Shown: piece by piece, positions 1 through 63,838 of the stretch
How positions within the stretch are numbered: the stretch's first letter is position 1
Layout of the letters: each line of letters begins with the position of its first letter
NCBI GenBank assembly: GCA_021234155.1
Contig: JAJEKV010000017.1
Coordinates: forward strand, 20,156,501 to 20,220,500
DNA from: Isoetes taiwanensis
Taxonomy: Eukaryota > Streptophyta > Lycopodiopsida > Isoetales > Isoetaceae
Direction: 5' to 3'
DNA length: 64,000 bases
The notes under the pieces: generated by a model
Databases searched by the model: none
Seen by the model: the letters and a program-made list of their open reading frames with translations, nothing else
Told to the model about the DNA's origin: nothing
Program-made: the position numbers and the translations under genes

Positions 1-48
1 GTAATTATGATTCCATCACATCATACAAGATTTATATCATATACGAAT

Positions 49-2102: not shown

Positions 2103-2380
2103 GGTCGAAATAACTCGGCGCAATGGCTTGGAGCCATTTGTGATTTGAATTTATAGTAACCACCCAAGATGGTGGAGACTGATACCACGAGGCCCTAAGT
2201 AGTAGGAACCCAGCCATAGCGGCCGGATCCATGCCATAAAAATGGAAGATGTGAGATAGTCCGGAATTATTTTTTGACCTTAGCATTCCATTCCCCGCTT
2301 CCACAACTTCTCAGAGCACCATCTGTGCATGACTTGGCATTAACCCCGATGATACACAAGGCACCCAAAAAATTAACTAC

Positions 2381-3512: not shown

Positions 3513-3617
3513 GACACTTGAGTCAAATGTGCCTAAAAGAACGACAAATTTATTTGAAACTCCAAGCCAAAAGCCAGATACAGATGCAGAGGCGGGACAC
3601 TTGAGTCAAATGTGCCT
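3513..3617 (+). repeat. 22-bp direct duplication
   Basis: The word GACACTTGAGTCAAATGTGC, plus two more matching bases, occurs at 3513-3534 and again at 3596-3617. The intervening 61 bp is not coding. It may be a slippage or filler duplication. Confidence 0.8.
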
Positions 3618-6537: not shown

Positions 6538-6539
6538 GT

Positions 6540-9500
6540 AAGAGTTTGCTTTGTCTTTTGGCTTTCAAGACTGTAGAATTATCAATGTTACCCTACTGCG
6601 TGCACTTTTTTCTAATTTAAATCCAGAATGAGATGAAAAATAGAAGGGAAATGTAATCTGGCTCTAACTTGGCAGTTCAATGTCAATAGTTTGTTTTCTA
6701 GACCTAAACGTCATTGGTCTATTTCTTGAGCTTCTTTAAGAGCCATAATATTTCGGCATACCATTTACTCAACCCACCCAATTTAACTACAGTCCATTCT
6801 GTTTGAGACGTCGGATAGCTAACTATGAAGTCTCTTCCGTTTTCATTGTTTCTTGTGAAGTGTTCTGTTGCCCTCTATCATCCATGCTTTCCTTTTTGTG
6901 TAGTTAGTTATTTTTTCTCTGGCCTATTTTTGCTTGGTCTTGTGACATAGGCGATCACTGTATGAAGCAACATGCTTCTAAAATTCATGAACTAATTTGT
7001 GAAAGAGACTTTCTAAGTTGATATGCATGAGCCCTACACATTTCTGATCAATCAGCATTAGCCATCCCTAAATCTTTCTGTTCTCTGGCTTTATTCCTAA
7101 ATGAAAGTCTCTGCCATGATCATGTGACTGGCCGTCATTTCTCTGCTTATGATTTTACACAGTGGTCCATGCTACACAAAACAGAAGTTCAGAAGTGACG
7201 TGCAACTTCCCTTGAAGAATACAGTTTCCCCAAGGGTTGATACAGCTCAAAATGATGTTGTATATGCTGATTAGCTTTTTGAATTTTAAGTTAAAATAGA
7301 TGTCTGGAATAGGGAATGGGGTGGAGCTAATTCATGAATAAATATGAGTTTTTCTAATGGTATTCTTGTATACATATACAAGTAGTTTTTTATTTAATAA
7401 ATTATCGTAGGTCATTTTTTTGAATAAAATGTGCGGAGGATAAGTCAGATATGAAGAAAGTGATTTAGTGCATGACTAAAGTATCCACTTCGGGTATAAT
7501 GCACAATATATGGTTAAAATGGGGTTCAAATACTCATAATGGTTAAAATGGGGTTCAAATCCTCATAGCTTTGATTCATTTGTTTTTATTATTTTTTGAT
7601 CTTGCAAGCTTATGGAATTGCAAGCTTATAGAATTTGGGACTATCTTTTAGAAACCACTAGTCATATACACCTAGGCTTTGGAAAACAAGACGGTTCAGA
7701 TAACACACCAATTATGAAGGGTTTGAACAAAGAAACCACTACAAGTTAAGAAAATAAAATTATATGGTGTTATAAAGTATCTTAATCTGCTTTCGAAAAC
7801 AAAACACTAGTGATTTATGACCTTTAACCACTCCGTAAAAAACTTACTAAACCATCGTCCCATACTAAAAGCATTACGGGTTTGATGCATAAACATGCAA
7901 GGCTTTACGCCATTAAACAATCATGACCTTATGACATGTAAACACAAGGAGAACCATATAAATTTAGCACATCAATAAGTCATGCTATTTTAGCATTCTA
8001 AAAACCACGTATATATAACAATATATTAAACCACGTCTTATTACCACATTCACAAACCATGCATATAAAGCATTATATTTAATTATTGCTTTTAAACATG
8101 TTAGAAAACCACCTTGGTGAACACCATATAAAATTCATATAAGGTTTTTAATGATATCAACCCACAAAGATGTATTGGTCTTATTAAGCAGTTTTATCAA
8201 GACATATATAATGATACATCAACGTGAGGAATTCCACGTGTCTGCTGAGCCCAAGCTCTAACGCTTGGTTTCTGGCAGCGTTACCATATAGAAAAAAGGG
8301 CAAAAATAACATGCCTGGAAGCGTATCTGGCTAGACATCTTCTATGGCATGCATGCTGTAGCGATTGCACCGGCCGTCTCACCGGACTTGATCCTCCTAA
8401 ACTTTCCCCTGATCTTTCCCTGTTTACTCCCTCTTCTAAGCACGAAATCTTCGGTTTTGGCTCCAAATTCACCCAAATCCGCTCCTGTGGCACTGAAAGG
8501 TAGAATTTTTTTCTCTTTTATTTTTGGGTTTTTTCAATCTAAAATTTCTCTGTTTGAATTTAGTCCAGTTTTGATCAATTGATGATTTTATCTATGTTTC
8601 TCTTGCAGATTCTGCAATGTTTGGGCTTAATCTACTCTCTCAATCCCAGCTCGGGCCTAATTTTGGATGCGAGGATTGCGGCAAAATCGTTGTTCCATGG
8701 CTTCCCGGCCATGTCCATGCCTGGCGAAATGATGCTCCATCATTCTGATCCTGCGTATTTGTGGTAATAAAACCCGGCTCCGAAAACATAGACTAGACTC
8801 CAAATCAAAATAGTCTGTTACGGCCAACACCAGCACACAACAGAAATCTGTAACTTGGCTTTGCTGGGTGTAATCCAACAACAAACTTAAAGCTGCGGAA
8901 CCTGCAGCTGGATCCAGCTTTTCCGGAATCTAAATTCCGTTTCAATCCCAATTCAATCAACCCAAAATCGAATTGCAACAGCTGTGGGTTTCTACTGTCC
9001 GATAGAAAAACAAACCAGACCACCGTTACCTTTGAGCAATTCTGATGCAGGCCCTTGCCGTTCTGCATCAAACCCTGCCGTTCTGCCTCAACTCTATCTC
9101 CTTGCCTCAAACCTTCCCCCGTTTGCTGGGATCACCTCCATAAAACCCCACCTCCGCACATCTGGCCGCCCCCTGTATCTGCTCTTTATAACACGTGTCC
9201 CACATTATGGCTTATACCAAATGTCACTTATGTTGAAAATGAGGCATGACCATAATTCCAACATTTGGGTAGACATACTAGAGATAGATGATATTCGTTT
9301 ATTGCTGGATCCTGGATCCTGACTGAAGTCAATTTAAATGTGAATGTGAATTTGAAGTGCAAAATTCAAGCTCATGGCCAAGTAGTTGGCCACCACAAAA
9401 GCATGCTATATGCATTTCCTGTTATATAATCACCCATCTATATAATGTAAATGTGCAAACATAACCACCAACCCTATATGTCCTCGTTATGTTCCTTCCC

Positions 9501-9930
9501 TCCTCCTCCAAAATCATGAGAAAAACACTTCTTAGAGCTAGCTTAAAAAACCCATGTTTGTCCACCTGACTAGCAACCATGAAATTTAATTGTCGAAGTC
9601 TTGTTAAGGGCTTTTGGTCATGAAAGACTACAATATACCTACTTTATAACTGGAGCCAATATATGTGTATGTGACTAAATACCTTGGGGGTGCTAATGGA
9701 AACTTTTATTAATAGGTGGAAGGACTAGGCATTGCTGCTCAATTTTTCACCTGAGAGAATCTTGAAACTTTGGGAATACTGAGCATTCTAGAAAATTCTA
9801 GAACCACCTTAAGAAAATCTAAAGGAATTTACCATAAAGTCTAGAGTAAATTTACAGAATTAAAAGGGAATCAACAAATTTGGCATTCAAATTAATAAAA
9901 CAACATTTAGTATCTTTTACATTGTTGCTT
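6540..9930. other. Intergenic stretch, no convincing gene
   Basis: The stretch is AT-rich and mostly non-coding. It contains a 29-bp tandem duplication (7510-7567), an AT-rich block with AAACCAC/AAACCAT words (7660-8160), and a CG-richer patch (8280-9200). In that patch a splice-like pair (a GTAGAA donor near 8500, TTCTCTTGCAG near 8608) separates short open frames on the plus strand. None of the translations resembles a family I know. Confidence 0.5.
7510..7567 (+). repeat. 29-bp tandem duplication
   Basis: Two consecutive copies of ATGGTTAAAATGGGGTTCAA followed by ATnCTCATA differ at a single base. Each copy contains GGTTCAAAT, which resembles a tRNA B box, but no A box or acceptor-stem pairing is visible. 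Confidence 0.9.
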
Positions 9931-9954
9931 CTTTTCATTATGTCATTTTCCTTT

Positions 9955-10002
9955 GAAGAGAAATGTTCGCGGCGGCCTTGGCCGCCGCGATAAATTTCTT
10001 GT
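9955..10002. repeat. GC-rich hairpin, copy 1
   Basis: An inverted repeat with 11-bp arms TCGCGGCGGCC and GGCCGCCGCGA around a TT spacer lies at 9967-9990. AT-rich outer arms (GAAATGT on the left, AAATTTCTT on the right) lengthen the stem imperfectly. The same hairpin recurs at 60221-60244 in inverted orientation relative to its outer arms. The surrounding sequence is AT-rich, so this GC island stands out. Confidence 0.9.
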
Positions 10003-10044
10003 ATACATAACTAGGGTAAAAACCCATATTGGTTTTAATTTTGG

Positions 10045-10545
10045 GTGCCTTGTGATACCAACCTTGCATTGATAGATTATTGGACACAGGTACATGGATT
10101 ATTGGGACAAGTAGACACATCCTCTGATGAACTCAAAGATGGATGGCTACCTAAGACTAGGTGGAGAGACTTGATAATACCTGAGGAAGCTGATGATGTG
10201 GTTAGTAGTATTCGCAAGTCCATGGCTTCTCCAGTTGCTGAAAAACACTATGTTGGTCCTAGGAAAGGAAGGCCTAAATATCTGATTCTGAACAAAAGGG
10301 TGTTAATCTCCTTACCCCGCCCATGTATCCATGGAGTAGCTTTTATGAATCGTATTTCTTCGATGGAATGCAGCTTGTTTCAAGGTAGATTTTGGGAGAT
10401 TCTTATCGATATTTTTCTCGTTAACGTATTTGGGATGGTTTTGCAGCCCACCGGTAGTGGGTTGGCCTCCAGTGCAAAATTTCTGAAAGCAGACTCTTGC
10501 TGCTCATACAGCGCAGAAAAACGCAAGAGAAACTCAGCCTGCTAA
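10045..10545 (+). CDS. Hypothetical open frame, 166 codons
   Basis: An uninterrupted frame runs from ATG 10045 to 10545. The first 70 residues are hydrophilic with Trp, Asp and Glu (for example LPKTRWRDLIIPEEADDVV, then KGRPKYLILNK) and look protein-like. The rest looks like translated non-coding sequence. It lies between the GC hairpin at 9967 and the repeat at 10620, upstream of a Helitron end, so it could be a captured exon fragment. I do not recognise a family. Confidence 0.25.
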   Translation: MPCDTNLALIDYWTQVHGLLGQVDTSSDELKDGWLPKTRWRDLIIPEEADDVVSSIRKSMASPVAEKHYVGPRKGRPKYLILNKRVLISLPRPCIHGVAFMNRISSMECSLFQGRFWEILIDIFLVNVFGMVLQPTGSGLASSAKFLKADSCCSYSAEKRKRNSAC

Positions 10546-40016: not shown

Positions 40017-41429
40017 TTTGTCAACCGTATTCATATTTGCTATAACTGATATGTCCCTCGACAGCTATTTCTCTTTCTGAATTTTTGGTCTTCCCCTAGA
40101 TAATGGCAAACACAGGGGGCATTGATTTCAAACTTAGCAGCAGCGCCTATAACTTATGTACAGGAAAGCCTCATTGTTGCAAAGTTATCAGTATATTGTT
40201 ATGAATGTGCTAAGTAAAGCCATCTCCAAATGAAGATGCCATAGCGAAATCTGTTACATAGACAACAAAAAGCAGCAATGGCCTTTGTCTATCGATTGGT
40301 ATGGACATGTACTTCGATGGTAAATGAGGTTGACAATCACCTCCTATTGAGCACCTCTTGCATGGAAAAAAGACTAATATTTGAAACTGAAGGATGCTGC
40401 AGTGACCTGAAGTATTGAATGGGACTATGCTTCAAGAGTAATACCTACAGCAGAAACAGAAAAGAGAAAATAAATGTTAGACAAACCTCCAAAATATGAT
40501 CTAGCACCCATAACAAAAGAATGCATTTTCTTTGTACATGTCAAAAAGCTTGGTTGACTCTAGATTAATATGATTCAAAAAAATGATTCACCTAATCATT
40601 GAGAAGATTAAATTGGTTGAAGAAAGATGGGGCAGTTCTACCTATTGAAATTTCACTTGGAGCGATTATTCACTCTAAACTGTGACTTCTTGCTTGGGTC
40701 GTAATCATTGTTAGAGAAGTGTAGTTCCCTTTTTACCACTGCTCGCTTAGTCTTTTTGGTGTTATGAAAGAAGAAAACAAGGTTGCAAATTAAACGGGAG
40801 TGTTGCAGCACTCCCGTTTCAAAGATTCCTTTAGAAAAAGCACGGCACTTCAGAAATTGGGCTTTTTTAAGAAAGGTTCAAAGTTTCAGGAGTATCAGTT
40901 TTTTTTTTGGCCTGTTTTTGGGGCACTCTTTGGACAGGACTTTGGTTTTTTAGAGTTAAGCACATGAAAATAGCAGATTTGAGACATGAGCACGTAATTC
41001 ATTAGAGGTCGATGTACAAAAAACACAAATTTAGTAAACATAATAATAATAATTTCATTACTGGTTTTGTGTTATATCAATAATGGCCAATAATGGCAAT
41101 AAATAATAGATGTCAATCGGTAGCCACAACAAAATCATGGGAGATCTAAATTAAAATCTTCTTCATTCTTCTTTCTTTGCTCGGCTTGACCCGGTTCTAA
41201 CGTTTCACCTTTCTCTGGTGACTTAGGCTTTTTACGTGTTGGTGGCTGCTTCAGGTATTGTAGCTAGAGCAACTTCTTTCATTTCTGCAAATGTAACCGT
41301 CTTCAAAGAGCTCGTAAAGGATTTGTATCTCCGAAGATGTCATCTTAGCAAAATCGAGTTAGACTTTGCCCCCAACTCTTGATTAAATGCGGTAGAGTTG
41401 GTAAGGCGAGAAAGTCTCATCTTGATGAA

Positions 41430-42270
41430 CTATCTGACCTCCTTGTCAATGTCATGACTACACAATTCGCCCTTCTTAAGTGCACAAGCAATAGTTGTGC
41501 ACCGAGGAAAGCAGCGTCAAGCACCCAATCTCTGGGCGTGAGAACATGTCGGAAGATGGTTAATAAGTTCTGTGGCTTTGGTAGTGATTCACTATTCTTC
41601 CTTGTGCACTAGGGTCGGCAACCACGTAACACATTTGGAAACTCCAACACGTTTGAAAAGTTCGGCATGCGGCTGTGTTGAAGTGTTCCATTATCGTTTT
41701 TCCGTCGAAACTCAATAAGCCACGTGAAGATATTCAACCTTACTTAGCGGACGCGGGCCTCCACCATGGTAATTAATATTTGTTTTGTACCTAAGGAAAT
41801 TAGAAATCTGAAGGATTTAAATGCTGACCAAAAGAAAGCGTATTTAGGAATAGAAACTCCAAAAAAATTTAAAAATACTACGGTTGTAACTAACAAAGAA
41901 AACAAAGGTAAGGAAAACAAAAGGACTTGTGTATTCGAATAAGTGCCACAAACATTTTCATAACCAGCTTGGGCAGGGCCCGGACAGTGATTCTTGGCGG
42001 CTTCCACAAGAACGGATTGCATGCTTGAGTGAAATACAACCGACCTCAATGTTTTGCCGTTGTAATCTGCTTTATGCCGTCGTGGCGTTAAACTCGAGAT
42101 TTTTTAAATGGTGATTAAATGCGTGGCGGTTGTCTTTCGGCTTAAACCCATATGGAAGGTCGGCTACTACCAAGGGTAAAATCTTGGGGCTTTTATCGAT
42201 TCGGTTAATTTGGTGCAATCCGCAGGTGTACAATAGAGAAGAGGTTATTTTGATCGAACATTGTAAACCT
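41430..42270 (-). pseudogene. Beta-class DNA amino-methyltransferase remnant
   Basis: On the minus strand the translation gives ILPLVVADLPYGFKPKD at about 42165-42115, resembling catalytic motif IV (D-P-P-Y type) of DNA N6-adenine/N4-cytosine methyltransferases. Further downstream comes LPKPQNLLTIFRHVLTPRDW at about 41590-41535, then VLDAAFLG and, after a one-frame shift, TTIACALKKGELCSHDID at about 41510-41455. The latter match the K-P-x-x-L segment and the S-adenosylmethionine motif I (VLD-x-F-x-G-S-G-T-T) followed by the acidic D-I-D. Motif IV before motif I is the beta-class order. Stops, frameshifts and a non-homologous segment (about 41744-41960) make it non-functional. It lies in the same island as the palindrome array and DUF7869 copy 2. 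Whether it belongs to that element is inferred. Confidence 0.62.
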
Positions 42271-42660
42271 CTAAGTAGTCGGAGGGCCGAGAATCGAACA
42301 TCCTTTGTCGCGGCGTCCTCTCCTCTCGTCTTTGTCATACCAAGTGCATGAAGCCCTCGTGCGGTCTTTGTTTTTCTTTTTGCTTTCTGCAAAAAGCGTC
42401 TTAGTAACAAGAAAAACAACAATATAAAAACAAATCAACATACCCGACCTTCAAAATTTGGCATCTTTGCACAATCCTTTAAATGCGAGGTTGCGATAGG
42501 ATAAAGCTCCTTGCACCTTTCATTTTGTCAACATTTAATTGCTCCATTAAGCGGGTTTGACATGTGATGACATTTTTACGGTTTGTAAGACCACACAAAT
42601 GTTAGAAGGAAGAAAACTAATAACAAAAGCAACAAAAGATCTACTAAAAAAGCGAAAGCG

Positions 42661-42850
42661 AAGTGTATTAGGAATACACTTTGGGTGGAGAACTCTACCC
42701 AGCTCACCACGATTGCCAAAGTGTATTCGAACTTTACAGCTTTTCGTGTGGGAGCCTAAGTGTGATACAGAATACCCTGTCTCCCGTGAGGACCAAAGTG
42801 TATTCGGAATACACTTTTCTCACACAGCCCAAGTCTTCGGAATACACTTT
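42661..42850. repeat. Dispersed TGTATTCnGAATACA palindromes
   Basis: Full palindromic copies lie at 42661-42681 (AAGTGTATT-AGG-AATACACTT) and 42795-42818. Half copies lie at 42716-42730 and 42836-42850. Further single sites occur near 41930, 43174, 44621 and 45372. They are the same motif as the dense array at 44825-45073 and are confined to 41.9-45.4 kb in what I could see. Confidence 0.85.
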
Positions 42851-42961
42851 GTATGTCAGCGTCTAAACCAGTTTTTCAAACTACACTTGTCCCTACCAAA
42901 CAAGAACCCAAAGTGGCATTCTTACTTGTGGAGCTCCTTGGACATTTCTTGAGTAAATTCT

Positions 42962-43288
42962 TTATCGACAACCTTTTTGCAGCGACCTTGCTAATATATC
43001 CATATCTGTGAAGCCACGCATTTCTGTGATTGTCATTTCCTTTTTGGGGGCGTCGGATCCTTTTTTTTTTCGGAGACCTTGCCTTTGCTTTTCAAATCCT
43101 GCCTTTCGAACATGGTGAATATTTCGTTTTGAGGTCCCAAATCTGGAAAGCGATATCGATGGGAGAATTTGTAGGTGTATTCGAATACAAAAACAACACT
43201 CGCCATCTCTGAAGGCTATTTGGAACCGGTTATCGTGTGGTATTAGAGGTTGCCGTTTGTTAGCCTCGTCATATTTGACGGCCTCCAC
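42962..43288 (-). pseudogene. Basic minus-strand open frame, unknown
   Basis: A 108-codon frame with KKKGSDAPKKEMTITEMRGF runs on the same strand as the methyltransferase remnant and upstream of it. It may be part of the same gene or another gene of the element, but no domain is visible. A palindrome copy (43174) lies within it, which argues that part of it is non-coding. Confidence 0.25.
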
Positions 43289-44190
43289 GGCCTACGCTTC
43301 CTTTAGTTCAATGAGTATTGTGGCTTCTTCAAATCTTCTCCATATTTTTCTTTAAATATCATATATTATGTGCATGAACACGATTTTGTCCACAAAGCTC
43401 ATTTCAGGCTTATATTCGTTGTCGGCATTGTGTGTGTTGCAGCGATTTTGCTTTCCTCGTCAATCGGGGGCCCGCGATAAGCGACCACGAACACGAGAGA
43501 GATATCTTGGGTTGTTTTTTTTCTTTGTACAAGCTGTCTCCTTGCTTTGAAGCGTGGTTTCCCCAAAGGACATAGTGCATGTAAGTGTCACGCATTTTCT
43601 CTGTAAGTAGTCAGCGGGGTCCATGCAGCGTGTTCATCAACAAAAGAACAACAATTGGAACAACATGGGCATTGGGGTTGCTCCTTATTACATCCTTCAA
43701 ATTTCTTAAATGGTCGGCATAGATTTTTGAACTTGAGAGGCTCACGGCTTCATTCTTGGTGCTTAACCCTCATTGGGAGTTCTTGGCAAGTAAATTACCC
43801 CTTGAACATACTTGTTAAGATTTATTTGTTCCATCCTCTACGAGGTCTTATCCACCTTTTTCTTTAATGGCCACCCGGGGCCTTGCCCTTTCCTTCTTAG
43901 TTTTTGGTTGTTCCTCGGCGATTTCAACAACAATCTCCTGTACCTTAAAAGCTTCTTTGGTTCTTTAGCGACTATCGTGTGCCTTGGCTGCTCAAGTTTT
44001 TTGTGATCTGTGAGGGGTTCTTCCTCGTCTTGTTCCTGGAACCTTTGTCGATGACCTCCACTGAAGAACTAGCGGTAGGTGGTGATTGTGACCTTTCTCC
44101 CATCGATTGCTCGGACTCAGCGATAGGAAAGTCCTCGCTTGTCTTTGGAACAAACACCAGCAATTAATGAACCACGGCCTTCGTTTTTGC

Positions 44191-44568
44191 TTAGTGTGAA
44201 AAGAATTTGTCTGATCTTTGGTGGTTGCACATTGATAATTTTAAAGAATCACGATGTCCACAATAATAAAGCCTTGGGGTCTTGAAGGAAAGCCTCCCAC
44301 GACCTCCTTGTCCGGCAACATCGAGGAGACATCTTTTATTGTCCCAAGGTTGACAAACTCGGGTCGGCGTACCTTTTGTTGCCGGCAATTTTACAGGGCG
44401 TGCAAAGCGTCGGTGTCTTGTATTTCCATCTGCACCCACAGTCACGAACCCGCTGCGTTTGAAAATTCTAAATAAATAGCGGGGCTCGTGTAACATCGGT
44501 GTGCCACGAGGGTGTGGGCGTTTAGGCTTGTGAGATTTCTTTGGCGCCCTCTTGCTTCCTTCTTCCAC
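44191..44568 (-). pseudogene. Basic minus-strand open frame, unknown
   Basis: The 125-codon frame is rich in Arg, Lys and Pro at the start (KRAPKKSHKPKRPHPRG) and has Cys/His near the end (LYYCGHRDSLKLSMCNH), which could be a remnant of a zinc-binding module. It points away from the palindrome array, divergently to the plus-strand DUF7869 copy. A Ser/Pro-rich frame at 43972-44163 continues on the same strand. The family is not recognised. Confidence 0.3.
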
Positions 44569-44824
44569 CTTTGAAAGCGTTGAAAACTACCTTGTTAAGA
44601 CAGAAATTCAAGCGAAAGTTGTATTCGAATAACATTTACTAAACTTGTGCCACGAAGCCGGAAAAGCGGGGAAAACAAGCTAAAATATTGTCACTCTAAG
44701 TCATGTTTTTTGTGCCTAAATTGGACTACTTAAGTGGTATTTTTAACCTATAAAATGGTATGTTGCAGCTAAAAGTGTGTCATCGTAGTGCAAAAAAAAA
44801 GCGTTCTAATAATTACAAGCAAAA

Positions 44825-45073
44825 TGTATTCCGGAATACACGCTTCTTGTAAGTGCAAGGTGTATTCGAATACACTTTGCCTTCGATCGAAAAAGCAAAG
44901 TGTATTAGGAATACACTTTGCTCAGCGAAAGGCAAAGTGTATTCGGAATACCTTTGCTCGACGAAAGGGCAATGTGTATTCGAATACGCCTTGCTTGGCG
45001 ATAAGCAAAGTGTATTCGAATACACTTTGCTCTTAGCGAATGGGCAAAGTGTATACGGAATACACTTTGGCCC
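44825..45073. repeat. Array of seven palindromes
   Basis: Seven palindromic units occur in 249 bp: 44825-44840 (perfect 16-mer TGTATTCCGGAATACA), 44855-44880, 44895-44921, 44932-44957, 44969-44994, 45005-45030 and 45042-45073. The unit at 45005 is a perfect 26-bp palindrome with half-site GCAAAGTGTATTC. The others keep the arms GCAAAGTGTATT / AATACACTTTGC while the centre varies (CG, AGG, CGG, ACGG). Spacers are 10-14 bp and share GCGAAAGG- or GCGATAAG-like words. The array lies between minus-strand remnants and plus-strand DUF7869 copy 2. It could be a binding-site array, a structured RNA or a transposon subterminal region. Confidence 0.93.
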
Positions 45074-45388
45074 TCTGGCTAAAATCGAGAAAACAAAAGA
45101 AAGGCGTACTATGTACTTTACATGCTTACACATCCATTTTTTAGCTATGTGAATCGGAATCTGACAAATATATATTAATCGGGCTTCGGGCTGGCGACTC
45201 AATCTCACAGCGGAATACATGGAATCGAGATTTCGAATTTTTCCTTTTAAAGGTAGGCAGGCTATGGGTTGTGTTTTTTCTATGTGATCACGGAATCGTC
45301 TTGTCCAAACACTCACCCGGATAAGTGTGATACGGAATAGCATTCTTTTACGACAAAAAGAACCGAGAATACTATTCGAGAATAGCAT

Positions 45389-48300
45389 TTGTATTCTCGA
45401 ATAGCATTAGTCCAATCGACTTGTGAGTTAGTAACAAACCCACAATTTTTGGAGTTGTTTGAAATGGTTAACCAGCCCAGTGAACAAACTTCCACCACCA
45501 TTTGTTTGCCCAAAGTACCTCTGCTTCAGGATGGAACACAAGGCGGAGATCTTCTTCAACACCTACCTCGACAAGGTCTTTGTTGCTTTCGAGACACTCA
45601 GGAGTCGATAACTTGTAGGTACGCCACCACCTTTCCGCCCCTCTCCAAGTCCGGTAGGAAACCCGTTTGCCACCACCTTTCACCCTCACTGTTGCATTAG
45701 CAATCTTCCACGCCATTTGTACCATCCCGACACTACAATGGCTCGACCTACGGCAAATTTTTGAACGGACTACCTCCGTGGTTTGTTGTTTCTCCATCTT
45801 CCTTACACATGCCAAGAATACAACCCGTTAGAGGCTGCGAGATTCTCCATCGTTTCTCCCATCCGATTTCACTACAAATGAAGGCGACCACTGCGGCATC
45901 TACTCCTCTTCACACAAAGCGTGGTGACACATGGGTTTTTGCAAATTTCGGTCTGCTCTAAGAGATATGTTTGATCGAACTCTGTGAAGGCGGCTTCAAC
46001 AACATTATTTGGCACATCATATCTTTGGCCCATCTCCTTCATTCAACGCCTCCGCCTTATCCGGTCTGACTTCCGTGGTTTGTTCTCCTCTACAAGCACA
46101 CCACTAAAATGAGGAGGTCACCCCAGTAGAACTCTCTTGAGAAGATGAAGACACCAGCGAAGTGCTTGAGATTACGCGTTCTCTAGCCAGTCCACCAAGA
46201 AATTCAAGGTGGATTATAGTTTGAGCATGCTCCTCTAAGAAGAAGAAACCTTATGGATTTGAGCATAAATGAGAAGACTTTTAAGTAAATGCTTGCTCAT
46301 TGGGTTGTATCAACAAATTGAACATGTCTAAATTACGAGCAATTAGAGACAACTTCAGTTCAATGACATTGGCTGACAGAATGCCTACTTGGCCTATCAT
46401 ATGAGCCGGACCGCAACACCTTCTTGCACTACATTAACCGTCAAAGAAGTTTGCCGGAAATGCTTTATGGTTGTCACCGTTTAGGGTCCACCAGAATGTC
46501 TAGAATACACAAAAAAGATGGACAAAAATCAGCAATTGATGATCATTGTGGACCAAGAAGAGTTGTAACCATGCATGCCCTTCTTCTTTGTGTCATGGAT
46601 GGAGAAATATTTTAGAGAAACATGTGAGAAAGGCGCCTAATAGCAACATGTATCATTTAGCGATAACATCACCAAAAAGATGTTTTTTAATGAGTACAAA
46701 GAGACTTGCACTCGACTTCAGCACATCTCTTACTCACACTTCACCGGTGTGGAAAAGTGAATTCGGTTTAGTGAAAATTCGAGGAGACCGGAGATACATT
46801 TTGCTCAAGGTGTGCAGAATTAAAAAGTCAAAGAGAAACTGCAAAGACAGAGGTCGAAAGAAGTAAGCTCATGTTCTTCAATCTCTCACTTGTTTTAAAA
46901 AAAATGCTTTGACCTTATTTCTTCTCTGAGGATATTATTACCAGAACCTTGCAGACATCGTGTGAACAACAAGCAGCAGAGAAGAAAAGCTTAAACCACG
47001 TAAAAAAAAAGCTCTTGAGCGTCCACTGCAATATATGTCTGTTGTGATTGATGGAATGGACCAAAAAAACTACTCTACCACATTTCTTGAACATTCCTAA
47101 AAGATGTGCAGGAGGAATGTTTTGTTAAAGTCCACCTTGTAGGAGCTATGGTCTTCAAAGGAAGTCTAAAGTGCAAAGTGTTTTTGGCGTATCCAAACTT
47201 GCATGGTGACCCGAACCTCACAATTACAATTCTTAACAAGGTCCAATGCGGCAAGAGCAATTACGCCCGGTGCTTTATCTCGCAACTTGACAATACTACA
47301 AGGGAGAACAAGAATCAAACACTCTTTGCGTCTTTTGTGCCATGTTAGTGGAGCTAGGGATCTTTAGAAAAGTGGCTCGGTTTCTTACTTGTAGGACACA
47401 CTCATGATCAGATTGACCAAATGTTAAACATTGGATTTTACGTCGCCTTAGAAGGAAGAAGGCTTTTCTGTCTTCCTTCTTTAGTTCGAATTATTGAAGA
47501 TTCTTACACTCCTACTCGATTTGGTCGATCTTCTTAAAGAGGCTGCTGATTTGGAAGTTTATTTTCTCTCAACGTTCAAGCAGAGAACAAAGGCGTGAAC
47601 AAGTTGAATGATCTTACCTTTCAACATCATATCAAGTTCTACTTGAAGGATGGCCAAAGCTTCTTACAGGGAAAAGTATACCACAACTAAAATTTGGAGT
47701 CCACCCGGAGGATTCACGGCTTCCTTAAATATATTCGGACACTTCCATCATAGAGCGTCTTTGAGCAACTTCCCTCTCAAAATCCTAAGGAGTCAAGCGG
47801 AAGAAAAGTACCCCGAGTCATCCTTAAAAGCCATTGAAAATGGAATTTCCCTCGGGCTTTAAGTACTTCTTAGAAGAAGATCGGATGTGGTGGAGTAATT
47901 TCTTTCTCGAGCAGAAAAATTGTTGTACAAAATATAGCTCTAAGGCGGTTGCAAGAACCATTTCAATGGCCTAACACCTTCCATCAACCTGACACAAAAT
48001 GAGGTCCAAGCGATTGCTACATTTGCACCTACGGTAGAAGGCGAGGAGGACCGAGTCATGTACCTCGGACGGGGGCGAGGAATGAGCCTCAAGGTAATAT
48101 CCGAAATTACCAAGGGTATGCTAATTGCTCTTCAAGCGGGAGGATGACAAAGGTCGACCTTTACGGATAGCAAAGTGCTTGACACGGTCAAGGAGGAAGG
48201 CAGTCACTAAACTCAAGATTCATTGGCTTGCAACACGCTCGGAAAATGCTTTTGAAGGTAGATATGAGTTAGAAATGAGAAGCCAAGGAAAAGGAGAAAG

Positions 48301-48640
48301 TCCAAGAAGGTGGGTTGTAGGGATGAGCTGATCCTTAATGGCGTGACTATATTGTGCTATGATTTTAAATTGAAATCGACAATCGTCCGCCCGAGGAGGA
48401 CTATCAATTTGCTTAAAAAAAAGCATAATTACGAAGAAGAGGATGAAGAAGGTGGTGGCAATGCTACACCATCTGTTGATAGTGATGAGGAAGATAACTC
48501 AAGCACTTCCTCTAGTGGCCCGATTGAAAGAAGTGAAGGTGATGAGGATGGCATAAATGAACATGATGGCGTCACGGATCCTTCCTTCATCCTCCTCATA
48601 CTTTTGCACATAAGCCAGTCTTAGAAAAAAGGCGTAAATT
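45389..48640 (+). pseudogene. Decayed DUF7869-type transposon gene, copy 2
   Basis: Pieces of the same protein type as at 0.5-2.1 kb are readable in changing frames: VFLAYPNLHGDPNLTI and FISQLDNTTRENKNQTLF at about 47185-47325 (parallel to LQLDNCAGQNKN), then VGHTHDQIDQML near 47395-47430 (parallel to PGHTHEDVDALF). A late segment reads KIHWLATRSENAFEGRYELE near 48210-48270 and an acidic tail (EEEDEEGGGNATPSVDSDEE) at about 48436-48495. The upstream part, 45.4-46.9 kb, contains open but unassigned frames. Many stops show it is older or faster-decaying than copy 1. Its 5' end faces the palindrome array. Confidence 0.62.
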
Positions 48641-48649
48641 TTGCATGTG

Positions 48650-51540
48650 AATATGAAGATTCTATCTTCAAATTTTGAGAATACTACGGTTTCGATTCTG
48701 GACTAACTTCAATTTTTGTTAAATATTTTATCCTCACGAAATTAGGGTTTTCTCGTAAAATATACTTCAACAACATTCTATTTGCTAAGAAAAATGACAC
48801 TTTAAAAAAGTCAATTCTTTCGTTGCACAAAAAAATTAGTCACTTTTGGGGGGGTCAAAATAGAATTTCATGCAAATTTTTTTTTTAACCTCATTTTACC
48901 CCCTTTTTGTAAAAAAAAAAAAGGAATCTTTGAGGAATATTCCTTTCGCTCTCGTTTAGATGATTTGCTCCCGTTTAATACGCAACTTTGTTAGAATTGA
49001 AACGTGTGGCCAACCACCAGCGGCAAGCTCCATCCAAGGCGGCAAGCTCCATCCAAAAAACTATTCCATACCAATAGAGAATGATTATTCCAACATAGAC
49101 ATGCTTAGCCTATTTAGCTCTGCAGAAGTGCTAAGGAAACTCTTTTGGATTAAAAAAGACATTGATTACTTGTCCACCATAACACAATGGATCTCACTGA
49201 CCAAGTACTGCCAAAGATATACATCAGTGCGAAATAAGTTATCAAAATTGAATGAAATATGTTATGATTCTTATATGTCCATTAGATGCATGTATCAAAA
49301 GCGGATGGTACACTATAAACCTAAATGTTGACATAGAAAATGGCAATGCAGATAAGCAAGCATGTTGCTGCTTTTGGTATCTGGCAGAAGGCCAGGCAGA
49401 TATGAGAAGGCCAGGCAGATATGACGATGCAGCATTCTAATCCCTGCATGTGATCCATCTATAACTAAGAAATAAGCAGGGGGGTATAAGCAGGGGGGTT
49501 AATAATATCCTGTACAAACTTTCTGGCAGCCTCTAACTCTACAGGCTTGGGTTTAGGAACATTATACATTTCACATCAATTCAAAATTGTTGTTTTCAAA
49601 GAATTATTTGGAAACATGCATATGTTATCTAGCATGTTACCTGTTTGCAAACAATCTCGCCGTCCACTCTCAAACCATGCTTCAATACATGCTCTTTTCA
49701 TAACTCGCCCGAAGCTACAATCACGGGATCGCCATGAGCCGCTTGGATATAGGGCGGTGAAACTCCACAAAGGCTGCTCCATATTCCATTTTGTTCGACG
49801 ACCGCCATTGAAAAAGAGGAATTAGGCCTACTCCCACAATATTTAAGTGTGGCCCAAAATCACGGGGCCTTGCTTGCTCCAAGCAAAACATCAGCCACCA
49901 TAGGTTTCTCGGCTCCACTATTCTCCACTCTAGGTTTGATGTAAGGCTCGGGATCATAAGAGGGCTTTAGATCAGCTTTAGCTTTTTGATGTTTTCTCCT
50001 TTACTCTATCCTCCGATTTGGAGTTATTTCCAGATGCACGCAATATGTGGACACGCATGTAATGAAAGTTAGCTACAAACCACGAGCATTTTTATTACAC
50101 ACCGCACGGACATGAAATTAGAAATGTTTGCTACCTAAAGTGACATGCACAACTTACATGTAAAAAGAAAACATGCATTCTCAAATCAATGTTTGCAACC
50201 AAAACTCGTGCGGTGATCCCAACTAATCTATATTTATCTTTGAAGCTAAGCCCTTTTCTAAAGCGCACTAAGAGCTCTAGAGCAACTCTATACTACCATA
50301 CGCATGCACGAAAAACATTGCAAATCATATGAAACTGGTGTCTTGTTGCTCAAATGTCGGATTCACGGGCTTCCAATCTCACCTTTCCCTCCTTTGCTCC
50401 TAATACGTAAGGCATTTTAAATTTAGGTATTCTTTGGATGCCCCTCCAAAAAATCTTTTGCAGAACACATAGAACTGACCCTTGGGCTTGCTACTTTGAC
50501 CTTCAATGAATAAGTACATATGCATACATCAAAATCATCCTTAGAAGGCATACCATGCTCCTTGCTTGCAAGTTTATACAGGAGCTTGCAAACATGCCCA
50601 TTGCATGGCTAAATTAGCATTACCAGTAGTCTGGTTTACAAATGGCTTCTAGTCAATACAGTGCTCAGGATGGCTTTTCGATAACTTTGAGATTGCATAG
50701 TATTGAGCTCCCTGTAAAAACAAAGATGGTAAGACATAGATAAAACAACGATTGCAACAACAATGGCAATAACGAAGCAATAACTTGACTTGCACAGATT
50801 GAAGCAATAACCATAGCAGAATTCCTGAAGCAACATAGCTCTGTAATGGCCAACAATGCAGCAGCAGTAAAGCACCAATCCTCTCATAGAATGGCCCTAA
50901 AGCATGTCTACAGGATAGATGACCTCAGAAATCACACTTAATAAACGTGGACCAGATTGGATATACAGATACCAAGCAAGGAAAAGCAAAAAGTCGGAAA
51001 GAATCCAAGGACCTAAGCCCAGTATACTCACGTGCTTCAATTGCCTACTTCAATGCTCTGCTTCAAATGAATGATCCGAGCTCTTTTCCCAGCAAATAAA
51101 AACCTCAAGCCACCAAATGTAGCGAAAGAAGAATAGAAGTCGGCAAGGTTCTCATACGATTACATAAACAGATAAGAATGAAGGCGGTTTAAGGTCTTAA
51201 TGTTCTCGCTCCACCGATGGCGAGGAACAAAAAATATGGTGCTTGTGGCGATTCAAAACACCTAAGAAATCTTGCTCACGAGATTCACGAGTCCCTAAGC
51301 TATCGTAACATTTAACCCAATATGGCGTTCCTTCTCTTCTCCCATCACTTTCTTTTCTATATTCGATTCTCCTAGAGCTGGGCCCCACCAATCGAAGGAA
51401 AGGCGTGACAGAGAAAGCTGGCCACCCACAATCGAAGGAAAAGGCGAGAGACGGGAAACAAAGGGCTAAAGCCGAGGAAAGAAAGCAAGAATTTGAAAAT
51501 TTCGTCCCCTTGAGAAGGAAGGAACGCCGCATCTTGGCGT
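48650..51540. other. Intergenic stretch, no recognised gene
   Basis: Open frames at 48960-49331 (plus) and 49721-49957 (minus) are unassigned. Homopolymer runs occur near 48850-48920. A pair of AATCGAAGGAAAGGCG-like blocks lies at 51390-51445. The rest is AT-rich without visible signals. Confidence 0.4.
49018..49500 (+). repeat. Cluster of short tandem duplications
   Basis: Three separate short duplications lie within 0.5 kb: CGGCAAGCTCCATCCAA twice (49021-49056), AGAAGGCCAGGCAGATATGA twice (about 49385-49424) and ATAAGCAGGGGGGT twice (about 49471-49500). Each pair is identical or nearly so. Confidence 0.85.
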
Positions 51541-59070: not shown

Positions 59071-59845
59071 TGGATCGCCGTTGTTTGAATCGGGTAACTG
59101 GAAAGGCAGACCGAAGCTCCAATCTTGCATTCCTTATTTCTGTGTGTGCCATAGGCTGACCTTTGTTAGAAATGATAGTGGACTTTGCAAGAAGATGACT
59201 GTGGTGTTGCCGTCAGCGCTTGCAGATTTTGAACAATGGATTTATGGTTATTCTGCTCTTAAGAAACACCAGAGGAAGCAGACGAATCCTTAATATAGCA
59301 ATGGAAGTGAACATATATCCTCATGGAATAGCCAGGTAATCAGTTAGAAACCCCATCCTTTAAACATGCTTCTTACACATGCGATAATTTTAAATGTGCA
59401 CTACAACCCTTCAATTCCTTAACGCACATAGACACATTTGATACACGTCAATTAGACAAGAAGGCTTGGCTCGGAGTGTGGAAGATAACAGGACCATGTA
59501 GAGTCTGCATAGGACTATGTTTTGATATGCATAGTTAAAGTTTAAAAATCCACCCGGAGAAGCTAATGAAGGATATAAAATGTTGAATTACCAGTGGTTT
59601 CTTTCTAGAGGATTTCAAGACAAGCATCCGCACAACTTATTTTTTTGGACAACAGCCATCTCTGGCAGAGAAACGTTAAAGAAGGATGACTTTTTATATC
59701 CCCGACAGAATTTTCAATGGAAGAGGAAATGATTTGGAAGAGTACATTTGTGCTGGTGTTAAAACTTTTGTAAGTATTGTCAGTTGAGTGTGTTTTTTTT
59801 AATATTCAGGAACCTGATAACTTTGTGCAATAGGATACTATTGAT

Positions 59846-60088
59846 GTGCTCCAAAGTGTTCTGGCTTGTAATTTGGCAGTAAAAAAGGTAGGTAAAGTCT
59901 ACCCTGATGATGAATCAGAGGGAGTGAAAAGTGGAGAAGAACAATTGAGTGGGGAAGACAAAGAAGCAGCAAGTGGTCAAGAAGAAGAGGATGGAGATGA
60001 CAATGGGGAATTAGATAGAGCATTGGATAAAGATTTTCTTAGAAACAAAAGAGATCATAAATTGTTATACAAAGGAAGAGGAAGGTAG
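59846..60088 (+). CDS. Hypothetical acidic open frame
   Basis: The 80-codon frame is dominated by Glu, Asp, Lys and Ser in its middle (EEQLSGEDKEAASGQEEEDG) and ends basic (KRDHKLLYKGRGR). Such acidic linkers occur in chromatin and transposon proteins, but no domain is visible. It could be an exon of a decayed mobile-element gene. Confidence 0.25.
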   Translation: MLQSVLACNLAVKKVGKVYPDDESEGVKSGEEQLSGEDKEAASGQEEEDGDDNGELDRALDKDFLRNKRDHKLLYKGRGR

Positions 60089-60210
60089 AGTGCATTGAGG
60101 GATCAGAAGTGCCCAAGGAGAAGAAAAGAGCTCCTGGATGTGTGATTAAAAGTAAGGAAGTTTGATAGGAGCACAAAGTTGTTGAACCATGTCAACGCTA
60201 CCACATATAC

Positions 60211-60253
60211 AAGAAATGTATCGCGGCGGCCTTGGCCGCCGCGAACATTTCTT
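60211..60253. repeat. GC-rich hairpin, copy 2
   Basis: AAGAAATGTA and the arm TCGCGGCGGCC, spacer TT, arm GGCCGCCGCGA and ACATTTCTT form a stem of about 20 bp per side with one bulged base. The core is identical to that at 9967-9990. The outer arms are exchanged, so the two copies are inverted relative to each other. A single arm with its flank recurs at 60392-60417. Confidence 0.92.
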
Positions 60254-62130
60254 TTGCCCAACTCGTGGCAAAAGAGGTTTTGTATTAAGTCAAAAGATCT
60301 CAGCTATGGACTTGTGAAATTGAACTACATGTGTCTAAGTTGGAGGACTCTAACGTCCAAATTTTTTTCCAAGAAACTCAAAAGCGATGCACTTGGCCGC
60401 TGCGAACATTTATTTTGTTCCATCCCACTTGCAAACTAAAAATGACAGCAAATAAGAAACTTTATATATTACTAGCCTTGGATACAATAACTACTAGACT
60501 TTAATGAAATCAATAGGGAAAACATACAGGAGTTAGGAGTTGAACCCATATTCTTGCCCTTGCAAAACTTGAAGAAATCCCTCACAAAATTAGGGACATT
60601 CCTATGTGTTCCATCAAATTGAATGTATGGAGGGAAGAACGCAAGATGCTACCTTCCGTCAATGGAGAATTATCCATAACGCAAGGTTATGCATAAGATG
60701 GGTTAGATGTATGAAAAATGGGTCTATACCAAGCTCTGACCTGGAGATACTCAACTGGCCTTGACTCCAAGAAAATTTAAGAGAGCTGATGTAAGTGAAG
60801 ATCTATAACAACATTGCTAACGTTTCGGCAATAATCCCCTCCTTCATAACAAAGCATAGCACTTCATATACACAAAATTAAAATGCCCAAACAAATGGAT
60901 CTCTATTGACCTTAAACCAATTGCAAAGGTCTAAGTAGGAGCTATTTTGACATTTAAATGATATCGTGATAGCCCCATTCTTTTATTTAGCAGTTGTTCA
61001 CATAACAGTTCTTTTATTTAGCAAGACATACCTGTGTAACTTCTGCATAGATTACCCAGATAACCACCACAACTGCAAGTACCGGTTCTCAGCTTTACAC
61101 AGTCAGATCTAATTTGAACCGTTGGCTTGATAGCTGCTATTAGCTAGTAACATGCCAGTGGCTCAAGATTTATGGAGATTATGTAGGATAATCGATGGGA
61201 AATGTTATATTACACCCTAGAGTTTTCCTTTGTACCCTGTTTCTGTTTCTGGCATGTGCCTTGTTTATAAATAACAATACTTCGCTGGAGCTTTGCCGGA
61301 TCAGGGCTTCGGTTTATGCCTTGTGCTTTATTTACAGGTAATAGGGCTTCATTGAACCTTTGCCGGATCAGGGCTTCATTGTGCTTCGCCGAAGCTTTGC
61401 ACGCTTCCTTTGGAAGTAGTCGTTCAAGAGCCTTCTCTGCAGGATTATTCAACAGAACTTTGCTTTTTTGCAAGCAGAAAGAGAAAAACAAAGGGTTCCT
61501 CAAAAACTAGGAATCTTCTCTGCCGGATTACTCACTGTAAAGCCTCAATAATCTTGGTGCAAGATGTACCTGTTTAACTTCTGCAGAGGTTACCCAAATA
61601 ACCACCACAACTGCAAGTAGCACTAATCCAGCCTTATACTTCATCATGTGCTGAAAGCTGCGCACATAAACTAGAGGATCTAATGGCAAAAAACCTGTCA
61701 GTGCCGGATTTGCAGCTTATTGCTGAAATCTTGATTGACCAGATAGAACATTCAGCGACATCCATTATTTGAATGTGAAGAGCTATTTCGAGCTATAGCT
61801 ATGGTGGATGCACGCCGGAAGATACATGGCAGACCCGATGGTTGTATCCTGGCAGTCAAGTCTCTTTGCAGAACTGGAACCCTAGCCCTATTTGCCAGTG
61901 GATCCGGTAAAGAGATTTGCAGAAATCCCTAACCTGTCGCAAATCTGTGCGCCAAACAGCAATCCGGCTGAATGATAAGAAAATCCATCTATTTTTGGAA
62001 GGTCTTTAAAGACATATCTTTGAATGGTCACTATTACTTGGGTCCTTCTGAACGTGTCATCGCTACGTGGTGCTTTTTGTTTTATTTTTTATTTTTTGAG
62101 ACATGCTATTTTTTGCCCCCCGAAACACAG

Positions 62131-63498
62131 AATATGAATAGAATAGAATAGAATACATTAATGTCCCTTGTGCCGCGAGGCCCCTGGACTTGTGTAGCAT
62201 GGGCGAGCTCCCTAAAAGGGCGCTACTAGCGCATCACGCTCGTAGCCTTTTCTGAAGGCTGACTTTTTTCTTTTATTACCAGCATCCCGCTTTACCTCGG
62301 CTTCGTGGCCGTGCAGTGATGCGTCGCTATCAATCAGCTTTTAATTGAACAATTTGTATGGGGCTTTTATGACCCGTTTTTGTACGGACCATATTACGAG
62401 CCCTCTTTCACTGTGTACTTCTCTATGTCTGGTCATCATTTTCTGGATCGCATCTGCCAAGTCTCGAAGTGATTCTGTTATTGTCATCAGAATATAGACC
62501 GGTTCCCCCCATCTTATATTTCTGTATTTGTCTCTGATGTCTCCATAGATCGGGCAATCGTTGACCATGTGATTCTCATCCTCTACTCTCCCATCATCAC
62601 AGATTCTGCATATCCTGTCCTCCTTGTCTATCCCTCTCCACCTATCTTTTTCGATTCTTAGATCATGACTTCCCATCCTGAATCTAGCCAGAATGTCTCT
62701 TCTGTTTTTTCCCAGGATGCTATCCCGATACATCTGGTGTCCTATTTGCTGATCTGGGTTGAAAACTTGCATGAGCCAAGCTGTCTTGGGTCCTGTGTGT
62801 TTTTGCAGCCACGCTCTTGTGGCTCGGTCTGCCCACTCCTCATCCCACTGCCCTTCCTTTATTAGGTCGCTCAGGTTTAATCCCATCTCTCTGGTCCAGT
62901 TTGCCACATCTTTAAACCATCCACTGCCTATGAGGATGTGTGATTTTGCTGATTCGCTAATTGCAATACTAGACAATTTCCCTTGAATATCTCCTGCATT
63001 GTCCCTGATCAAGTACCTTATGGTTCTCTCCCATGCTCTCACCTCCATTGGTTTTTGCCCTGTTTCGAGGATCATGATTGTTAGTGGCGTATTTGTCCTT
63101 ACTTTAAATTCTTGTCTGTGCCATTGCCTAAGAATTCCTTCCTGCTTTTCCCATTTTCTCTCTGTTAGGCCTGGCCCCCAGGCTTCTGCCCCATATAGCT
63201 GAGTGGTGGCTACCACTGCGCTGTATAAGTAGCATTTGATGTCCCAGTCTATTATTCTGCTTCTGTTGCAGAAATTCTTCATGTTGAAGTAACTCCCTAT
63301 AGCTGATTGAAACCTGGCGTCTGCTCCTTTGGCCCATTTCCCTGTACCACGTGCATCGTACCCTAGATATCTGTATTCCGTTGCTTCCTCTATATCTTTT
63401 TCCTTATATCTGAAGGGTCTATGCCTGTTCTTTTGACCAAAGATGACAATCTTAGTTTTTGCTAGATTTACAGTCAGCCCTGTTTTTGCTAGATTTTG
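62131..63498 (-). mobile_element. 5'-truncated LINE (non-LTR retrotransposon)
   Basis: On the minus strand the insertion starts within the reverse transcriptase (63498) and runs through the ORF2 stop (62341) and a 3' untranslated region of about 190 bp. It ends in a short simple repeat of TTCTA/TATTC units (62134-62156 on the plus strand reads GAATAGAATAGAATA). Such truncation and a pentanucleotide tail fit target-primed reverse transcription. The open frame is intact for 386 codons, which suggests a recent insertion. A target duplication was not identified. Confidence 0.82.
62341..63498 (-). CDS. LINE ORF2 C-terminal part
   Basis: The frame begins at the truncation point and reads GLTVNLAKTKIVIFG, the block that follows the YxDD catalytic site in LINE reverse transcriptases. 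It continues with YRYLGYDARGTGKW and the thumb/maturase-like GSYFNMKNFCNR and LYGAEAWGPGL. Near the C-terminus a CCHC zinc motif is present (CRICDDGRVEDENHMVNDC, i.e. C-x2-C-x9-H-x4-C). The frame ends VIKAPYKLFN at 62341. There is no stop or frameshift. RT motifs upstream of GLTV, including the catalytic aspartates, are missing, so it cannot be autonomous. Confidence 0.85.
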   Translation of the reverse strand, partial: QNLAKTGLTVNLAKTKIVIFGQKNRHRPFRYKEKDIEEATEYRYLGYDARGTGKWAKGADARFQSAIGSYFNMKNFCNRSRIIDWDIKCYLYSAVVATTQLYGAEAWGPGLTERKWEKQEGILRQWHRQEFKVRTNTPLTIMILETGQKPMEVRAWERTIRYLIRDNAGDIQGKLSSIAISESAKSHILIGSGWFKDVANWTREMGLNLSDLIKEGQWDEEWADRATRAWLQKHTGPKTAWLMQVFNPDQQIGHQMYRDSILGKNRRDILARFRMGSHDLRIEKDRWRGIDKEDRICRICDDGRVEDENHMVNDCPIYGDIRDKYRNIRWGEPVYILMTITESLRDLADAIQKMMTRHREVHSERGLVIWSVQKRVIKAPYKLFN

Positions 63499-63643
63499 CT
63501 AAATTTAAATGTGTCATTTCGTAGATGAGAAGGCATCTTGGCTATAAGAATTACATTGTTTAGATAAGTTCTCAAATGGGTTATTTTTATTTGAAACTTC
63601 ATAATATATCAAGTTCGTACTAAAGAATGACTTGTTTCTGTAG

Positions 63644-63838
63644 AAAAAGTCCAATGGGTTGCCTGTCGGGTTTTTAAACCTTGTAAGAAGGTGTAAAGAA
63701 GAAAGACAAAAGCTTAAAGCACAAGCAGAAGGTCAAGCTGCATCAGCTAATGATCTTGAAAATTTCTATCTTTTCAACCAAGATGCATTATACAAAGTCG
63801 TAGTTGGAGACACATTAAGTAATTTTAAAGATGAATGA
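63644..63838 (+). CDS. Possible last exon of an unknown gene
   Basis: An open frame of 64 codons follows an acceptor-like TTTCTGTAG (63643) and ends with TGA. It reads LVRRCKEERQKLKAQAEGQA and then ANDLENFYLFNQDALYKVVV, which is protein-like, with a basic helix followed by a mixed segment. It has no Met near its start, so it would be an internal start or terminal exon. The LINE ends only 146 bp upstream and would lie in the preceding intron. The family is not recognised. Confidence 0.35.
   Translation, partial: KKSNGLPVGFLNLVRRCKEERQKLKAQAEGQAASANDLENFYLFNQDALYKVVVGDTLSNFKDE

Follow-up and report, generated by a model that had tools for sequence, protein, structure and literature searches.

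Accessory genes that join a ParB-like part to a methyltransferase have been reported in transposons of brown, green and red algae (PMC12477816), and the element described here is therefore not the first of its kind. The algal ParB-methyltransferase transposon in that report measures 21.5 kb. Methyltransferases were described in 2013 in two virus-integrated Mariner transposons, Mariner-2_PGv and Mariner-1_OLpv, which also have an endonuclease and whose methyltransferase domains are of other types; the available text mentions no ParB-like part (PMC3627910). In fungi, DNA transposons carry a TET/JBP enzyme, which oxidises 5mC, beside their transposase, and a ParB-like part is likewise absent from the accessible portion of that paper (PMC12730594). 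VANDAL elements of Arabidopsis combine an accessory protein, VANC, with lineage-specific noncoding repeats in the same element; the binding of VANC was shown, its effect is a loss of DNA methylation, and no methyltransferase activity is ascribed to it (PMC10398659). The bdelloid rotifer enzyme N4CMT is a permuted (beta) amino-methyltransferase of bacterial origin in a eukaryote, encoded by a host gene with a chromodomain and with SPPY (4mC) as motif IV (PMC8885841).

The locus studied here corresponds to a DNA transposon encoding a methyltransferase, as in the virus-integrated Mariner elements, with a predicted base-modifying enzyme beside a probable transposase, as in fungi, and with an accessory protein and lineage-specific noncoding repeats in the same element, as in VANDAL. 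The enzyme belongs, by its sequence, to the same permuted class as N4CMT; it differs from it in being encoded by a transposon and in having D[LI]PY as motif IV. In contrast to VANC, the domain found here would add a methyl group, and binding is a prediction. Compared with the algal case as described, the element resides in a vascular plant, is present in hundreds of copies with a typical full size of 8.2–8.5 kb, carries a DUF7869 gene, and occurs in three lineages with their own palindromes. As far as the searched literature goes (most subscription journals lying outside it), the earlier reports are algal, no vascular-plant ParB-methyltransferase transposon was found and no paper names DUF7869; the high copy number of such a transposon in a vascular plant is what the present case contributes.

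The window, that is the whole stretch of 64,000 nucleotides analysed, is located on contig C985 at 20,156,501–20,220,500. It was compared with the genome from which it comes, 1,658,258,908 bases in 1110 contigs, whose contigs and loci are designated below by C and L numbers. A beta-class DNA methyltransferase remnant had been proposed at positions 41,430–42,270 in a preliminary description. The three motifs on which the proposal was based were present on the minus strand, with DLPYG at about 42,160, KPQNLL...TPRDWVLDAAFLG at about 41,590–41,500 and TTIACALKKGELCSHDID at about 41,500–41,440. The three window fragments searched against Pfam gave no methyltransferase match, the best matches being unrelated (E 0.12–0.18), whereas the intact homologues matched PF01555, the exon of locus L003 with an E value of 5.7e-19; the assignment was thus borne out by the relatives and not by the remnant itself. 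Exon-by-exon tblastn alignment to a good copy gave a match far beyond chance (Table 1), and by these alignments the segment at 41.1–44.6 kb, on the minus strand, represents a decayed version of a gene whose intact form occurs elsewhere in this genome. Stops and frameshifts interrupt the window copy, and its DAAFLG is a decayed form of the DAFSGSG of the family. The N-terminal part is very decayed, and the N-terminal piece of the L007 gene had no tblastn match there. The interval first delimited holds the last two exons of the gene; the whole element extends from 40,776 to 48,992, and its ParB-like part and ends had been missed.

Table 1. Features of the element in window coordinates. E values are from tblastn searches within the 64-kb window, for the methyltransferase gene against a good copy.
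Feature	Position	Strand	Basis or remark
Target site duplication AGAA, left copy	40772..40775	.	directly before left terminus
Left terminal inverted repeat AACAAGGTTGCAAATTAAACGGGAGTG	40776..40802	+	homology break in 12/14 copies; 600 exact genome matches, backward-pattern control 0
Subterminal hairpin AAACGGGAGTGTTGCAGCACTCCCGTTT, 14-bp arms	40792..40819	.	varied forms in other left ends compared
Remnant of methyltransferase exon 5, with KP..L and the motif I/II region	41142..41789	-	E 1e-18; aligned to family copies; DAFSGSGTTIACA...DID in intact copies
Methyltransferase exon 4 remnant, motif IV DLPYG	41948..42385	-	tblastn, E 5e-11
Exon 3 remnant of methyltransferase gene	42447..42577	-	tblastn, E 1e-9
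Two decayed palindromes (42,659 and 42,795), apparent intron between exons 2 and 3	42659..42817	.	L005 and L006 have additional sites in this intron
Exon 2 remnant of methyltransferase gene	42925..43131	-	tblastn, E 8e-15
ParB-like domain exon remnant	43202..43852	-	tblastn, E 4e-31; ParB assignment weak
Strongly decayed N-terminal part of this gene	43853..44586	-	frames resemble L006 and L007 by eye; partly aligned
Palindrome array (GTGTATTC...GAATACAC) between divergent genes	44816..45077	.	intergenic array also in L007
DUF7869 gene, N-terminal exon remnant	46090..46870	+	tblastn, E 9e-29
Decayed gene of the probable transposase: DUF7869 domain (PF25273) with C-terminal part	47026..48432	+	E 1e-87 (tblastn with L009)
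Right terminal inverted repeat, read inward AACAAAGTTGCGTATTAAACGGGAGCAA	48965..48992	-	503 exact genome matches, backward-pattern control 0
Target site duplication AGAA, right copy	48993..48996	.	directly after right terminus

A search of the whole genome with PF01555 (N6_N4_Mtase) gave 1444 first-look candidates, and the 150 that were scored all lay above the curated cut-off (E 3e-17 to 1e-12). The intact L003 exon reached 69.4 bits against a cut-off of 26.7, and the copies of two further lineages, B and C, reached 60.2 and 59.2 bits (E 4e-16 and 7e-16, respectively). In L007 the ParB-like part lies in a long first exon, which is followed by exon 2, a short exon 3, and exons 4 and 5, the exon limits being taken from conserved reading frames and splice-like junctions. 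In this copy, exon 4 contains motif IV, D[LI]PYG, and exon 5 contains KPQKLINHLLDMF and DAFSGSGTTIACA...VDID. The order typical of the beta class, with D[LI]PYG in exon 4 ahead of KPQKLI...DAFSGSG in exon 5, was kept. Both the profile score and the motif order place the predicted protein among the beta-class amino-methyltransferases. The closest solved structures by sequence were those of two bacterial enzymes, CcrM (6pbd, E 4.5e-9) and MboIIA (1g60, E 1e-8), in which the aligned motif IV reads DPPY, compared with D[LI]PY here. Since DPPY is associated with adenine and SPPY with 4mC (PMC8885841), the D of motif IV suggests that N6-adenine methylation is the likely chemistry. Six viral contigs matched the family over short segments with 30–40% identity. 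A search for related loci with peptide patterns of the family found none in genome contigs, probably because the patterns were too family-specific.

The part of the gene upstream of the methyltransferase may be ParB-like, as suggested by weak profile hits. TIGR03764 (ParB family protein; cut-off 143.75 bits) matched with an E value of 4e-4 and a score of 20.1 bits, phrog_30771, a profile of unknown function that has no cut-off, with 3.2e-4, and DUF6551 with values from 0.0027 to 0.07, below its cut-off. In lineage B the unrelated family PF24077 outscored DUF6551, and in lineage C no ParB-type profile matched, PF24077 being the one match. The assignment gains support from the independent description of a protein with ParB-like and methyltransferase parts in algal transposons (PMC12477816). 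An AlphaFold model of the ParB-like exon, built from eight sequences, had a pLDDT of 41.6, too low to be used. Against phages the ParB-like domain gave no match at E 10. Of the 1995 plasmid records matched by the ParB-like and methyltransferase parts together, none covered 80% of the query, and the best 12 matched just the methyltransferase part.

Similarity between copies ended at or within 1–2 bases of the sequence AACA..TTGC.AATT.AACG.GAG, followed by the hairpin, in 12 of 14 copies including that of the window; in L005 and L006 the homology break was further in. The right end, beyond the DUF7869 gene, was the inverse of the matching repeat in the four copies concerned (the window and those on C976, C1034 and C1059). 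Perfect 4-bp duplications flanked five of the eight elements fetched at both sides, with AGAA in the window, TTAA on C976, AATG on C1034, ATAC on C1059 and GACC on C926; another of the eight, on C1025, had a damaged left end. For the remaining two, a further lineage-B element (C1068) and a further lineage-C element (C907), left ends were not found in the stretches fetched. The length of the duplications agrees with that of the 4-bp AT-rich duplications of Sola2 (PMC3627910) and differs from the 8 bp given for Zisupton (KDZ) in PMC12730594. GACC is not AT-rich. The copy on C976 interrupts a PPR gene. Both flanking frames matched PPR (E 1e-19 and 1e-14), and by eye one frame continues into the other across TTAA. 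With terminal inverted repeats and a target site duplication, the element is a cut-and-paste DNA transposon, and the window copy, with its AACA... inverted ends, is complete but dead, 8.2 kb in size, with the methyltransferase gene on the minus strand, the DUF7869 gene on the plus strand and the array of palindromes.

The pairing of the termini was counted on contigs C1–C908, for which the lists of both termini were complete. There, 55 of 95 left termini faced a right terminus within 30 kb, compared with 7 in the same-strand control, and 31 of these 55 pairs were at 8.0–8.7 kb and 5 below 4.5 kb. The past mobility of the element and its high copy number are evident from these observations. The five short pairs, 3.1–4.0 kb apart, were situated on C4, C179, C907 and C908 (two), and are probably internally deleted non-autonomous derivatives.

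The second gene of the element corresponds to DUF7869. The intact copies L008 and L009 scored 175.3 and 176.6 bits with PF25273 (cut-off 26; E 1.3e-51 and 5.5e-52, respectively). The protein is a probable transposase, judging by where its gene lies within the element and by the acidic residues that it conserves; a structure model of the domain from 14 sequences had a pLDDT of 37.4, too low to be used. That a DUF7869 transposon carries the methyltransferase, as first suggested for this locus, agrees with the termini, which enclose both genes, and with the distribution of the two families in the genome. The DUF7869 search gave 9910 first-look candidates, of which 150 were scored. One of these scored DUF7869 matches was present within 15 kb of 24 of the 150 scored methyltransferase matches, compared with 0.66 expected by random placement on the same contigs (mean of 500 runs, maximum 5; contig ends approximated by the furthest match). 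This linkage is a lower bound because 150 of the 9910 DUF7869 candidates were scored. Twenty-two of the 24 pairs were divergent, and in 17 the spacing was 5.1–6.0 kb. The two results that the preliminary description had named as contradicting it, an absence of methyltransferase profile matches and an absence of linkage between intact homologues and DUF7869 elements, were both looked for and did not occur.

Three DUF7869 clades, A, B and C, were distinguished by eye among 20 copies fetched of the 150 top matches. A divergent ParB-methyltransferase gene was present upstream of one DUF7869 gene of clade B (C1025) and of one of clade C (C926). These two genes were 53–56% identical to lineage A in the ParB-like part, 40–46% in exon 4 and 58–62% in exon 5. 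Motif IV reads ADIPYG in both copies, exon 4 of the C1025 copy has a frame break, and the ends of these elements likewise begin with AACAA. The same gene pair has thus been kept in three lineages, one element having been examined in each of B and C. Toward the end of the window, at 59,535–63,835 on the plus strand, fragments of a second, different ParB-methyltransferase gene were visible, with an N-terminal piece at about 59,550–59,702 and an exon 4 piece at 63,644–63,835 that shares 54% identity with lineage B across 59 residues. Between these fragments, at 62,341–63,498 on the opposite strand, lies an open reading frame of 385 amino acids that by eye resembles a reverse transcriptase.

The palindromes first noticed beside the remnant are part of the element, the array being situated between its two genes. 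Each lineage has its own palindrome, GTGTATTCCGGAATACAC in A, CGGTATAAATTTATACCG in B and CCTATGCGCGCATAGG in C, those of B and C being known from one element each (L096 and L097). Intergenic arrays were present between the two genes in the window, L007, L096 and L097. Further sites or arrays occurred in the methyltransferase introns of the window copy, L005, L006, L069 and L096, and a single intron site in L097; L007 has no more than decayed traces in its introns, and L006 has one intergenic site in addition to its intron array. Exact palindromes were found genome-wide with 2585 (A), 4415 (B) and 314 (C) strand hits, and backward controls gave 0. Of the 50 A sites listed (C1–C64), 38 had an A terminus no more than 9 kb away and lay on its inner side, compared with none of the 50 B sites listed (C2–C23). 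In the window, no lineage-B palindrome was found at up to two mismatches. Among the listed A sites with spacings below 400 bp, 10 of 22 spacings were 41–42 bp and 6 were 83–85 bp, and the B spacing was irregular. In 8 of 12 tabulated elements the A sites were located 1.8–2.2 and/or 4.1–4.8 kb from the left end, the elements on C2, C4, C18 and C54 departing from these positions. The cores are TCCGGA, AAATTT and GCGCGC, with TAT as half-site, and all three forms used in the genome-wide counts fit TAT-N6-ATA. Decayed window palindromes often have a shorter core, TAT-TCGA-ATA. A fixed TAT-N6-ATA spacing was considered and set aside, as suggestive at most, in view of these shorter copies, the irregular B spacing and the number of lineages, just three. 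We regard the array as a candidate target of the ParB-methyltransferase protein; the transposase could bind it instead.

Selection on the methyltransferase was estimated from a random draw of 40 copies out of 146 of the 150 scored matches, a set in which good copies are over-represented. Of these 40, 13 were open through exons 4 and 5, one piece each, and 12 of the 13 (L032 being omitted) were compared together with L003 and L007. The dN/dS ratio was 0.16 in 3 pairs with dS below 0.1, 0.107 in 13 pairs with dS of 0.1–0.3, 0.066 in 2 pairs with dS of 0.3–0.6, and 0.03, a rough value at high dS, in 28 pairs with dS above 1. Synonymous distance was saturated in 45 of 91 methyltransferase pairs, 14 of 28 ParB-like pairs and 41 of 66 DUF7869 pairs. 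The ratio was 0.025–0.19 for the ParB-like exon (8 copies) and 0.069–0.135 for DUF7869 (12 copies), in both cases among copies chosen for open frames. These estimates, well below 1, show purifying selection on both genes as far as the compared copies represent them. Motif IV was intact in 10 of the 14 compared methyltransferase copies and motif I in 12. The window copy, with a ratio of 0.59 to its nearest relative, appears to be decaying.

We propose that the window remnant is the methyltransferase gene of a dead 8.2-kb DUF7869 transposon, and that the likeliest role of the system would be self-recognition through the element's own array and adenine methylation in its promoter region. In this model, the palindromes between the two genes, which differ from lineage to lineage, would be bound by the ParB-like part, and the element's own promoter region would be marked by the methyltransferase, of the N6-adenine type as suggested by D-[LI]-P-Y. 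Such marking might allow the element to tell its own copies apart from other DNA and to evade or modulate silencing by the host or transposition. The likeliest role would be that its own promoters are marked and kept usable, with control of transposition as the alternative. The more specific suggestion, of a ParB-like reader and an N6-adenine methyltransferase co-evolving with the palindromes, in which 6mA would serve the element as an epigenetic tag of its own in the nucleus of the plant, is tentative, and we give it appreciable but limited weight.

A different explanation, which we consider rather unlikely, is that the ParB-methyltransferase protein is a regulator of transcription or transposition that uses its methyltransferase fold chiefly to recognise DNA; the arrays would then be simple operators or sites of binding, perhaps by the DUF7869 protein. 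The operator-like position of the arrays between divergent genes, the sites in the introns and the altered motif IV of 4 of the 14 compared copies would fit such a regulator. This explanation is weakened by the persistence of D[LI]PYG and DAFSGSG across lineages A, B and C, whose exons are 40–62% identical, and by the low dN/dS, because DNA binding alone would require none of these residues. It is much less probable that the methyltransferase is passenger cargo or a swept-along host gene sequence that does nothing for the element. DUF7869 elements can persist in its absence, as indicated by the rough first-look counts, in which DUF7869 candidates far exceed methyltransferase candidates, and by three canonical elements (L098, L099 and L100) in which no methyltransferase or ParB-like part was detected upstream at E 1e-3; the pairing is therefore a property of some DUF7869 lineages. 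Mere cargo is nevertheless difficult to reconcile with a divergent pair present in three lineages, with a ratio near 0.03 at high synonymous divergence in lineage A, and with the regular position of the gene on C1–C908, where the exact left terminus was found 604–653 bp from 12 of 21 scored methyltransferase matches and was absent for the other 9. Contamination with bacterial DNA, or recent transfer from a bacterium or phage, to which the prokaryotic nature of the enzyme class and the listed phage and plasmid matches, mostly annotated DNA methyltransferases, might point, has a negligible probability, since the gene is apparently multi-exon, many copies are on contigs of several megabases, one is inside a PPR gene, and the listed prokaryotic matches are 21–28% identical over the methyltransferase part.

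Whether 6mA occurs in the nuclear DNA of plants is disputed. A transposon that encodes a predicted amino-methyltransferase and has thousands of candidate sites would be a clean place to look for it, and the candidate sites that differ between lineages make the published idea of self-binding and self-modification testable in a vascular plant. Transposons may also be the source of 6mA or 4mC signals in genomes of this kind.

Other DUF7869 copies and neighbouring genes were observed. At 1–10,545 of the window, on the plus strand, lies a separate canonical DUF7869 element with the variant LDNCAGQNKNRY (PF25273, E 6e-36), whose main pieces are 93–95% identical to a copy in L005 and which contains foreign DNA at about 2.0–10.1 kb. 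Just to the left of the window, near the DUF7869 gene of this canonical element, a frame with a DGQHS stretch was visible (L100:3,461–3,925, minus strand). It matched TIGR03187 (DGQHR domain) with an E value of 0.097, below the cut-off, and had no demonstrable relation to the methyltransferase or the ParB-like part; it is perhaps another accessory protein without a methyltransferase. At L002:2,495–3,445, on the plus strand, a SET-domain frame (PF00856, E 2.2e-6) is situated less than 1 kb from a methyltransferase copy.
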